DNA from: Nocardia sp. NBC_00403
Lineage (GTDB): Bacteria > Actinomycetota > Actinomycetes > Mycobacteriales > Mycobacteriaceae
NCBI RefSeq assembly: GCF_036046055.1
Contig: NZ_CP107939.1
Coordinates: forward strand, 744,001-808,000
Direction of reading: 5' to 3'
DNA: 64,000 nt
The notes under the pieces are model-generated. The model searched no databases. It saw only the letters and a list, made by a program, of their open reading frames with translations, and was not told the origin of the DNA. Below, one piece after another: positions 50,391 through 53,731 of the stretch; positions within the stretch are counted from its first letter, which is position 1, and each line of letters starts with the position of its first letter. The position numbers were made by a program, and so were the translations under genes.

Positions 50391-51341
50391 TCATCGGCGC
50401 AACGACCTGCGATACCCCGCGGGCGTCGTGCCTGTCGCGGCGCGCAGGTGCACCCGCATTGCGGTGACGCTGCCGAATCCGGATTGCGCCGCAACGACCT
50501 CGACCGGCAACTCGGTGGTTTCCAGCAATTCCCGAGCACGCGCCGTGCGCTGCGCCTCCAGCCATCGTCGCGGCGTGGTGCCCACCGCCGTCTTGAATCG
50601 GCGAATAAAGGTGCGCTCACTCATCAAGGCGTGCGCGGCCAGCGCCGAAACATCGGGCGCAGCCGCCGGATTCGCCGCGGCCCACGCCATGGTCGCGGCA
50701 AGACCACCGCCGAAACCGTTGGTGCTCATGGCATCCGGGATGTACTGAGCCTGCCCGCCTTCGCGATGCGGTGGTGTCACGTTCCATCGGGCCAGCTCCG
50801 CTGCGGCGGCCGCGCCCAGCTCGCGGCGCACGATGTGCAGGCACAGGTCGAGACTCGCGGACAACCCGGCGGAGGTGAGAACGTCACCGTCGTCGATGTA
50901 CAGCGCGGCGGGGTCGAGCTTCACCGCAGGAAACAGCTCGGCGAAATCATGACAGTAGGCCCAGTGCGTCGTCGCCGGCCTGCCGTCCAGCAATCCGGCC
51001 CAGCCCAGCACGAACGCACCGACACACACGCTGACCATGGTCGCGCCGCGCGCCGCGGCGGCCTGCAGCGCATCCAGCGCAGCGTCCGGCGGCGGCAACG
51101 TCGGCAAACCGATGCCGGGCACCACCACGATGTCCGCCTCCGCCATCACCTCCAGCCCGTGCGCGACGTGCAGATCGAATCCGCTCGGCGTCCACACCGG
51201 CCCCGGCCGCACTGAGCACGTCTCCAGCTCGAATCCGACCGCGACACCGAATTTTCCCGGCCCGTGCCGGAACGCCTGCACGATGCAACCCAGGTCATAG
51301 GTCATAACGCCGTCGAGCGCGAGTGCGACAACCTTCTTCAT
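50391..51341 (-). CDS. GlxA-like regulator: DJ-1/PfpI domain fused to AraC DNA-binding domain
   Basis: A 316-residue transcription factor. Residues 1-180 are a DJ-1/PfpI domain: VVALALDGVMTYDLG start, VVVPGIGLPTLPPPDA, and SVCVGAFVLGWAGLLDGRPA with the conserved Cys elbow and ATTHW. Residues about 210-316 hold the AraC tandem helix-turn-helix (DVSALAAHALMSERTFIRRF and VEVVAAQSGFGSVTAMRVHL). Such proteins sense a metabolite with the DJ-1 domain. The 31-base motif at 51359-51389 lies 18 bases upstream of its start and recurs upstream of the HD-hydrolase gene at 52979. Confidence 0.92.
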   Translation of the reverse strand: MKKVVALALDGVMTYDLGCIVQAFRHGPGKFGVAVGFELETCSVRPGPVWTPSGFDLHVAHGLEVMAEADIVVVPGIGLPTLPPPDAALDALQAAAARGATMVSVCVGAFVLGWAGLLDGRPATTHWAYCHDFAELFPAVKLDPAALYIDDGDVLTSAGLSASLDLCLHIVRRELGAAAAAELARWNVTPPHREGGQAQYIPDAMSTNGFGGGLAATMAWAAANPAAAPDVSALAAHALMSERTFIRRFKTAVGTTPRRWLEAQRTARARELLETTELPVEVVAAQSGFGSVTAMRVHLRAATGTTPAGYRRSLRR

Positions 51342-51358
51342 CGCCTCAGTTTGGCATG

Positions 51359-51389
51359 AATCCGAGTATTACTGGCATTCTCGCCACTC
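51359..51389. promoter_or_regulatory. 31-bp regulatory motif, copy 1 (upstream of the DJ-1/AraC gene)
   Basis: Matches 52885-52915 at 27 of 31 positions, same orientation. The core is an inverted repeat ACTGGC-N6-GCCACT (5 of 6 pairs). It lies directly upstream of the regulator start, consistent with autoregulation. Confidence 0.75.
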
Positions 51390-51475
51390 ACATTCAGGGC
51401 CTGCGGTTCTTGCCCGAGTTGATCGCGTCGCGGTATCTGCTGGTCTCGGCGCTACCGATCCTCGTCCGCGGTGGT

Positions 51476-51658
51476 GTGCGGGACGTTCGCGGTGCCGGGG
51501 TTTTCGAACCGGAACGGGGGCGGTGCCGGGCACGGTACGCGCTGATACTCGAGGTCGCGGTGCTGGGCGGCGGGGCGGCGGCACTGTCGTCCGCTGTGGT
51601 GCTGGTGACGTACCAGGCTCTCGCGTATTTCCGGGCGGGCCGGCTGCTCGCGCATTGA
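51476..51658 (+). CDS. Possible small single-helix membrane protein
   Basis: From GTG 51476 a 60-residue frame contains RYALILEVAVLGGGAAALSS and then AVVLVTYQALAYF, a plausible membrane helix with a polar, Arg-rich start. The remainder of the 51390-51698 region shows no other gene. No ribosome site is convincing, so this is tentative. Confidence 0.35.
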   Translation: MRDVRGAGVFEPERGRCRARYALILEVAVLGGGAAALSSAVVLVTYQALAYFRAGRLLAH

Positions 51659-51698
51659 GACAATCGGAAGCGGTACGAAGTGTCGAAAGGATTTGGTT

Positions 51699-52100
51699 GT
51701 GACCGTTCAACCGAGCGGCGTGGAGCCGCGGCCGGACTTGGTGGATCGTTCGGCGCCCTTACTGCCCGCAGGCAGTGAGATACGGCAGGTATTCATCGGC
51801 CAGGCCGCGCCGAGCTTCCTCTTCTTCCTGATCACATATCTCACCGGCCTCACCATGTTCTGGAACAGATACCGTTGCGTGGCGGTCACTCCGGACGCCA
51901 TCTACGTGCTGGAGAGCAGCAAACTGTCCGGCGGCGCGAAACCACAGCATCTGCTGGGCACGATGCCCCGCGATACCCGGGTCGGCCCGGTCTCCGGCCG
52001 CTGGGCACAGGTGACGCTGCTCGGTGAACGGCACTGGGTGCACAGGCGCTTTCACGACCAGATCGCCGCGGCAGACCGTGAGGCCGGCGTCACCGGATGA
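51699..52100 (+). CDS. Membrane-associated protein, PH-like, 133 residues
   Basis: From GTG 51699, with AAAGGA 7 bases upstream. The N-terminal part ends in a hydrophobic stretch FLFFLITYLTGLTMFW (about 44-60), followed by a small beta-rich domain: YRCVAVTPDAIYVLESSKLS and PRDTRVGPVSGRWAQVTLLG, ending HRRFHDQIAAADREAG. This pattern, a membrane segment followed by a 'what the protein displays by default' beta domain, recalls bacterial PH-like domains. Function unknown. It lies in the 1.5-kb segment between the two regulator motifs. Confidence 0.65.
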   Translation: MTVQPSGVEPRPDLVDRSAPLLPAGSEIRQVFIGQAAPSFLFFLITYLTGLTMFWNRYRCVAVTPDAIYVLESSKLSGGAKPQHLLGTMPRDTRVGPVSGRWAQVTLLGERHWVHRRFHDQIAAADREAGVTG

Positions 52101-52167
52101 CTCAGCCGGATGGCTGCGGCGGTTCGTGAGAATGCCTAGGGCAGAGTGGATTGCTACAGTCTCGGCT

Positions 52168-52635
52168 GTGCGCACAGTCACTTCCAAGGTCCGTATCGAA
52201 GCCCCCAGAGAGATCGTGTGGGCGGTGCTGACCGACCCCGAATACGTCAAGCAATGGCAGTACGGCAGCGTCTTGAGCACTGACTGGTCCGTCGGCTCGC
52301 CGATTCGTTTCACCAACGAGTGGGACGGCACAACGTTCGAACAGTGGGGCAGCGTGCTCCTCGTCGATGCCCCCGCGCAGTTGCGGTACTCGCTGTTCGC
52401 TCCCCGCCCGGACCTCGAGGACAAGCCGGAGAACTACTTCACGATGGGCTATGGGCTCGAGGACGCCGTGGGCGCAACGGAGTTGACGATCACGCAGGAA
52501 GACCCCCGCGAGAATGCCGGCGACGAGGACGAAGGCGAGGAGGGAGAGAGCCCCGTGCTCGCGGCCTTGAAGAACCTTGCCGAGTCGGTGGCGGTGAACC
52601 AGCAGGCTGAGACCCGCTCGGTCGGCCCGGCATAG
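52168..52635 (+). CDS. SRPBCC (START/AHSA1-like) domain protein
   Basis: A 155-residue protein from GTG 52168. RTVTSKVRIEAPREIVWAVL, TDPEYVKQWQYGS and SVLLVDAPAQLRYSLFAP form the SRPBCC/AHSA1 helix-grip fold, a cavity binding hydrophobic ligands or assisting chaperones. A TACAGT -10-like hexamer at 52155-52160 ends 7 bases before the GTG and there is no ribosome site, suggesting a leaderless mRNA; ATG 52132 is the alternative. The C-terminal tail is acidic (AGDEDEGEEGES). It is one of two genes between the regulator motifs. Ligand unknown. Confidence 0.8.
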   Translation: MRTVTSKVRIEAPREIVWAVLTDPEYVKQWQYGSVLSTDWSVGSPIRFTNEWDGTTFEQWGSVLLVDAPAQLRYSLFAPRPDLEDKPENYFTMGYGLEDAVGATELTITQEDPRENAGDEDEGEEGESPVLAALKNLAESVAVNQQAETRSVGPA

Positions 52636-52884
52636 GAAGCGAGCAGCAGCGTGCAATGGGTGATGGCCTACGACGCCATCTCCTTGGCGCTGAGCAGTGC
52701 TGCGCCGCACAGGGATACCGGAACCTATGGGCCACACGCGCACTCAGGCATGAGCGGTCCGCTGCATCGGCTGACCTGAGCACGCGCGTACCGCATCGAC
52801 AACGACAAGGCCGGAAGGTGCACCGTGGCGGCTGCACCCAGCGCCAGAACTTCGTCCAGGCTTTTCGCCGTGCGGATTGGCGTA

Positions 52885-52915
52885 AATCCGAGCGTTACTG
52901 GCATTTCCGCCACTC
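52885..52915. promoter_or_regulatory. 31-bp regulatory motif, copy 2 (upstream of the HD-hydrolase gene)
   Basis: 27 of 31 positions match 51359-51389, same orientation; the ACTGGC-N6-GCCACT core is identical in both. It ends 63 bases before the GTG at 52979, a sensible activator position. The 249 bases from 52636 to 52884 have no convincing gene. Confidence 0.75.
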
Positions 52916-52978
52916 GTCGGTAGTCCGCTCAGCGGCTTCACTGAACAGCGAGAAGCGTTCGAGGAGAAGGAGGGCAAC

Positions 52979-53731
52979 GTGGGTGCGCCTGCTGGGATCG
53001 ACTGGGAATGGGCGACGCGGACCGGAGGGACGCTCTCCGGAGCACAGCACCGACAGTTGGCGGTTGAACTGGCGCGGACGCTGCCGAAACTGAGTGGTGC
53101 GCAGCTCAAACGCGTGCTCGGAAGACACGGCACCGGGCGGCTGGAGTTCGCCGGGTTGCGGGTGCCCGATTCGAAACTCGCCAAGGCGGCGGAAACCGAA
53201 GCCCGCGAATCACTTTCGATCCACCTGCTCGAGCATTCGTATCGCACCTATTTCTTCGGGCGGGTGCTCGCCGAGCTCGACAGTATTCGCTACGACGACG
53301 AATTGGTTTATGTCGCCTGCCTGCTACATGACCTCCAGCTCGAAAACCCCACTCCGGGCAGGTGTTTCGCGGTAGCAGGTGGCGAACGAGCGGCAGCGTT
53401 CGCGGCGCGCGAGGGCGCGGATCCGGAACGCGCACAGGAAATCGGAGCCGCGATTGCCGCACACATCACCACTGGTGTCGCCAACGATCTGAGCGATCCC
53501 GGCGGCTTCGTATCCGCGGGCGCCTCGGTGGATGTGATCGGGGCGCGCTTCCCGGAACTGGACCCGGACTGGGTCGCGCAACTGTTGCAACGGCATCCGC
53601 GTCACGATGCGAAGCGTCATCTGATCGCCGCGTTCAAGGCCGAGGCCGAAGCCGTACCGAAGGGCCGCACCGCCTTGCTGAACAGTGTCGGCTTTCTGCA
53701 ACTCGTCCGAATGGCTCCGTACTCCGAATAA
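52979..53731 (+). CDS. HD-domain hydrolase, cyanamide-hydratase-like
   Basis: A 250-residue protein from GTG 52979, directly behind GAAGGAGGG. The HD metal site reads: SIHLLEHSYRTYFF (first His), VACLLHDLQLE (the HD pair, about 117-118) and IGAAIAAHITTGV (later His). The arrangement, with a C-terminal HDAKRHLIAAFKAEAEA, resembles cyanamide hydratase / HD-type nitrile or isonitrile-converting enzymes. It should be a metal-dependent hydrolase of a small molecule. Its upstream motif matches that of the DJ-1/AraC regulator gene, whose DJ-1 domain resembles isonitrile hydratase folds. A perfect terminator follows. Confidence 0.85.
   Translation: MGAPAGIDWEWATRTGGTLSGAQHRQLAVELARTLPKLSGAQLKRVLGRHGTGRLEFAGLRVPDSKLAKAAETEARESLSIHLLEHSYRTYFFGRVLAELDSIRYDDELVYVACLLHDLQLENPTPGRCFAVAGGERAAAFAAREGADPERAQEIGAAIAAHITTGVANDLSDPGGFVSAGASVDVIGARFPELDPDWVAQLLQRHPRHDAKRHLIAAFKAEAEAVPKGRTALLNSVGFLQLVRMAPYSE

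Follow-up and report, generated by a model that had tools for sequence, protein, structure and literature searches.

AraC-type transcriptional regulators bearing a GATase-1-like domain, which is here taken to be a domain of the DJ-1 type, include GbdR and CdhR. A regulator of this class, termed REG, and an HD-domain enzyme, termed HD, are encoded in a 64,000-nucleotide stretch of Nocardia sp. NBC_00403 (contig NZ_CP107939.1, positions 744,001 to 808,000; this whole stretch is called the window and features are numbered within it), where both genes are preceded by a copy of a shared repeat that is the putative operator of REG. A described parallel is the carnitine switch of Pseudomonas aeruginosa, in which CdhR, encoded divergently from its target caiX, binds direct GGTCGC repeats with a 15 bp spacer (a 21 bp period) over 34 bp of the divergent spacer, and acts on its own gene too (PMC5806209). 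The sites of SouR and ArgR are said to be similar. AdpA of Streptomyces, a global regulator, has a DJ-1-like dimerisation domain in which modification of Cys62 alters DNA binding (PMC9239190), and a consensus site of TGGCSNGWWY (PMC4021200). On the enzyme side, according to a 2020 review (PMC8177086) the cyanamide hydratase Ddi2 is the only lyase known among HD-superfamily enzymes, and the yeast DDI2/3 genes are controlled by the zinc-finger protein Fzf1 (PMC11442136). A cyanamide hydratase is also named in a gene table of a Neorhizobium paper.

REG (316 aa; 50391..51341, reverse strand) and HD (250 aa; 52979..53731, forward strand) were recognised in a preliminary description of this locus, and Pfam agrees with those gene calls, the DJ-1/PfpI (PF01965) and AraC helix-turn-helix (HTH; PF12833) domains of REG scoring above cut-off and an HD domain being found in HD. 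The 31-bp motif reported there is likewise present as given, at 51359-51389 and 52885-52915 with 27 of 31 bases identical. It is not common throughout the genome, a possibility raised at the time: neither the window nor the 8,725,101-base genome contains a third copy at up to three mismatches, a looser 37-base pattern finds no further copy in the whole genome, and 100 shuffles of the window gave no match at up to three mismatches. The repeat extends beyond 31 bp, the 40-mers at 51350..51389 and 52876..52915 (both forward strand) scoring 62.9 and 52.7 against a matrix built from the sites of 17 relatives, under which shuffled upstream regions (n=260) average -37.1 with a maximum of -3.7. When the 17 spacers (103-115 bp) were aligned, a single conserved block, AGTTTGgCAcgAATCcgAGcatTAcTGtCATtycyGCCACTcg, was found, flanked by variable spacer and then, on the HD side, by a conserved cTTgACT hexamer. 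The layout of the site is TGGC-N17-TG(G/T)C-N6-GCCA, a direct repeat of 21-bp period plus an inverted half-site, and both window copies match its general form, TGKC-N17-TGKC-N6-GMCA, exactly; each reads TGGC-N17-TGGC-N6-GCCA, the first at 51352-51386, 8 bp upstream of the REG start codon, and the second at 52878-52912. At the position of the hexamer the window has TTCACT (52937..52942, forward strand), a candidate -35-like element of the HD promoter. The 31-bp repeat is the core of a conserved site of about 40 bp that is likely to be the REG operator. As with CdhR, there are two direct half-sites 21 bp apart, or two helical turns (6 + 15 bp in CdhR, within its 34 bp footprint); unlike the CdhR site, the half-site is TGGC or TGTC and an extra inverted half-site is present. 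The TGGC core is common to the AdpA consensus, whereas the full REG site occurs only twice in the genome, in contrast to the targets of a global regulator.

Across 150 genomes of the genus, HD matches at E <= 1e-60 were found in 56, of which 53 were retained: G277, G278 and G302 were dropped as they hold only paralogs of 44-48% identity. Second and third matches to paralogs in other genomes were likewise set aside. REG is present in 50 of these (48 by search, and G355 and G270 in pieces). The two genes are divergent and 73-145 bp apart in 37 of the 50, 200-372 bp apart in three (G026, G034 and G264) and more than 1 kb apart in nine, with REG on a separate contig in one (G329). Judged from these spacers, relatives most often have the two genes divergent and a single operator in the spacer between them, in keeping with the earlier proposal that the window's pair was once divergent and was later split. 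The surrounding order of methyltransferase, aldehyde dehydrogenase, REG, HD and phosphoenolpyruvate (PEP) carboxykinase was seen again in most fetched loci. The site lies within 250 bp of HD in 49 of the 50 REG genomes, with scores of 28.1 to 72.8, and in the remaining one (G264) stands at the REG end of the spacer with a score of 59.5. By contrast, the three HD genomes without a REG ortholog, in which the best REG-like protein has 43-46% identity, have site scores of -30.0, -17.7 and 11.1, the last (G261) being a decayed site above the shuffle maximum; the tree of HD, a gene tree, places these genomes apart from one another. Among the 49 genomes found by the REG search, G277 is the sole one outside the 53-genome set: it has a partial HD match of 152 aa (L140:3703-4280), and an intact site adjoins its REG gene. 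Its HD gene looks broken or truncated, as the match spans only residues 100-250. In G008, tandem HD paralogs (L043:9374-10876) with 44% and 29% identity to the window HD were found, with no REG ortholog in the stretch, and the 55 plasmid records of relatives gave HD matches that were all below 60% identity.

More distant HD loci were gathered through searches of relatives, class and order, which gave one best match per genome and only part of all matches, and REG-like genes were sought up to about 1.5 kb away. Such a neighbour was found at 28 of 77 loci, which are not independent species samples: 20 are divergent, five have the same direction and three are unplaced, the HD query falling below threshold there. 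The 77 loci represent 76 places, as G124 was fetched twice, with neither copy among the 28; in a control of 40 stretches (800 kb, with one REG-like gene), 5 of 1360 overlapping 3.5-kb windows contained one. The operator layout, at up to one mismatch, occurs upstream of 19 of the 28 DJ-1/AraC genes adjoining distant HD genes (exactly in 11). Among 20 DJ-1/AraC genes with no HD neighbour (L229-L248) it precedes 16 (exactly in 10), as against 34 of 2400 random 330-bp windows (exactly in none). Since the pattern was defined from HD-linked spacers, the 20 unlinked genes are the fairer test; they are 43-50% identical to REG and were fetched after the pattern was set, although several look like close relatives of one another. 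A layout restricted to HD partners was rejected on this basis, and the layout may possibly represent a family-wide operator code of DJ-1/AraC regulators in Actinobacteria. Within the HTH of REG, whose closest solved structure is AdpA, Arg243 and Arg247 are invariant in 34 of 34 aligned rows, and the corresponding arginines of AdpA presumably read TGGC. Because the family-wide layout, the co-occurrence with REG and the CdhR precedent agree, the shared motif is very likely the REG operator.

The target of this switch differs from the carnitine operon of CdhR. HD appears nearer to Ddi2 than to HD phosphohydrolases in predicted fold and in residues, and no solved structure matches it better in fold and sequence than yeast Ddi2. 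The model predicts the Ddi2 fold, and HD has the same H...HD metal ligand set as Ddi2, in which the fourth aspartate is missing and Thr157 occupies its place (PMC8177086); H86, H117, D118 and A182, with positions counted on the phmmer alignment, are found in 42 of 42 rows. The predicted activity is that of a Ddi2-like hydratase that depends on metal and acts on a small compound, perhaps a cyano or isocyano one. HD is not classed as a cyanamide hydratase, and the absence of a bacterial cyanamide hydratase among the solved structures listed has no bearing on whether one exists. An alternative is that REG regulates an ordinary HD phosphohydrolase or nucleotidase with a role in nucleotide or metabolite turnover. 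Many of the 120 relatives listed are named 'phosphohydrolase' or 'HD domain-containing protein', and HD does not reach the cut-off of the cyanamide hydratase family TIGR03401 (58.3 against 109.85 bits), above which there was no match in any of 197 class genomes; given the fold and ligand residues, this alternative is possible, if rather unlikely.

The DJ-1 domain of REG has isonitrile hydratases as its best relatives among solved structures, so that, together with the modelled proximity of HD to Ddi2, the suggestion that both proteins have relatives acting on cyanamide or isonitriles is upheld. Like the isonitrile (isocyanide) hydratase InhA, the domain has an SVC(V/T)G cysteine elbow and an ATTHWAY stretch; unlike InhA, which is a free enzyme, it is fused to an AraC HTH. 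The elbow, SVCVG in REG (Cys106), and His126 are conserved in 33 of 34 rows, which are all those having a residue there, while Cys42 and Cys167 are invariant (34 of 34) and Cys130 nearly so (33 of 34). The compound sensed by REG may be electrophilic or of the cyano/isocyano type. AdpA offers no direct precedent for Cys106, as its Cys62 lies at the surface and the other AdpA cysteines are unmodified (PMC9239190). The curated equivalog cut-off of FtrA (NF006902) is missed by REG (308.5 against 425 bits).

Whether HD is the target can be judged from the nine split genomes, which the HD tree divides among five separate groups and which carry several different kinds of DNA between the genes. The site near HD is kept, with a score of at least 28.1, in all ten split or unlinked genomes (the nine and G329). 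The REG-side copy is good in the window's own genome (G000), G343, G360 and G359 (41.8-62.9), weaker in G265 and G009 (30.9 and 28.7) and decayed or absent in G339, G272, G254 and G329 (10.8, 7.1, -31.7 and -5.3). The operator might mainly serve REG autoregulation, with the HD copy a functionless remnant of the ancestral spacer, as the site stands directly before REG, its layout is also found before many DJ-1/AraC genes lacking an HD neighbour, and the REG-side copy is the higher-scoring one in 4 of the 9 split genomes; the retention of the HD-side copy in 10 of 10 genomes while the REG-side copy is decayed or lost in 4 of 10, and the absence or decay of the HD-side site in all three genomes without REG, make this improbable. 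A simple segmental duplication, or the scar of a mobile element, with the link between the genes a positional coincidence, could explain why the window copies flank inserted DNA and why Nocardia asiatica (G026; L036/L056) has two tandem sites in a 200-bp spacer, but is very improbable given that the site is conserved among 17 genomes while the spacer changes fast, is retained at HD in five separate split groups and has a family-wide layout. A chance repeat or scar was also rejected on the grounds of conservation across genomes and uniqueness.

The tandem sites of N. asiatica, which enclose no cargo, plausibly represent an intermediate before a split, with duplication followed by insertion between the copies. 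In G329 (L138/L139), HD, the site and the PEP carboxykinase gene are on one contig, and REG and the aldehyde dehydrogenase gene on another; the site travelled with HD. In G343 (L125), HD is 93% identical to the window HD and the inserted DNA matches that of the G009, G265, G359 and G360 group, with open reading frames that by eye resemble an HxlR-type regulator and an NAD(P)-binding protein; as HD and insert match different genomes, HD with its site may have been exchanged through recombination.

Because the shared site is missing or decayed in the three genomes without REG, it is likely that REG switches the HD gene on, activation being favoured over repression by the position of the site upstream of the -35-like hexamer and by the CdhR precedent. 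In this model the direct repeat of 21-bp period and the inverted half-site, which adjoin the HD -35 region on its upstream side, would be bound by a REG dimer, and activation would be of class I, the mode shown for CdhR. As the other copy lies so close to its start codon, REG is proposed also to control its own gene, as CdhR does. The DJ-1 domain with its conserved cysteines would be the small-molecule sensor, and the unit would probably serve to destroy a small toxic molecule.

Taken as a whole, the interpretation of the locus as a REG-operator-HD unit, in which REG activates a putative Ddi2-like hydratase of a small compound, is considered probable. Several points weigh against it. The evidence consists of sequence comparison and predicted fold, HD and Ddi2 share only 19-20% identity, and the TIGR03401 cut-off is missed. 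The layout pattern was set once 19 of the 28 HD-linked spacers had been inspected, nine of the 28 distant pairs lack it at up to one mismatch, and it is general to the regulator family rather than specific to HD partners. The matrix overlaps the scored set: six of its 17 sites belong to scored genomes, and others are sequences that occur under two handles, L045 and G273 for example. The genomes without REG number only three, one of which retains a decayed site. In 4 of the 9 split genomes (G000, G360, G265 and G359) the higher score belongs to the copy on the REG side, so that, with the losses confined to the REG side, the HD copy is never lost rather than always better. Inspection of the 17-spacer alignment by eye revealed no -10 element for HD. 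Finally, at 49 of the 77 distant HD loci no regulator of this sort is found in the surrounding 1.5 kb or so, which makes the pairing frequent rather than universal and implies that the HD enzyme is often controlled otherwise. The preliminary description stands in part: its motif is retained as a putative operator, as are the ancestral divergence and split, while membership of the cyanamide hydratase family falls short of the threshold.

In 37 of the 50 genomes with both genes, the spacer is 73-145 bp long and lacks the DNA that in the window is inserted between the operator copies (51390..52875, forward strand). The insert contains an open reading frame at 51693-52100 without a Pfam match and another at 52024-52635 matching AHSA1/SRPBCC. 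As a component of the system this insert was rejected, since other split genomes have different DNA there and unsplit ones have none, and it is probably a bystander. The reading frame at 51323-51658 is probably not a real gene, as it partly coincides with REG and the site, and has no Pfam match.

Within the open-access literature, searched by title and abstract and thus only part of all literature (most subscription papers lie outside it), no description of a DJ-1/AraC-controlled HD hydratase was found, in agreement with the earlier view that the form of the system was previously undescribed. On the sequence evidence, the conserved regulator-operator-enzyme unit is regulated in a manner already known, whereas its target is of a new kind. 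More speculatively, it could be a widespread actinobacterial switch of one regulator and one enzyme, in which a DJ-1 domain related to isonitrile hydratases senses a cyano or isocyano toxin and induces the Ddi2-like hydratase that destroys it. Equally tentative is the idea that such a switch would be the bacterial equivalent of the cyanamide response of yeast, assembled from unrelated regulatory components; DDI2/3 are under the control of Fzf1, not of a DJ-1/AraC protein (PMC11442136). The absences of the regulator and the gene splits act as natural experiments tying the site to the regulator without bench work. The operator layout may provide a simple predictor of targets for many uncharacterised DJ-1/AraC regulators in Actinobacteria. 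A bacterial Ddi2-like branch would have its own predicted switch and a mapped operator, through which reporter-based screening for inducers could lead to the substrate.

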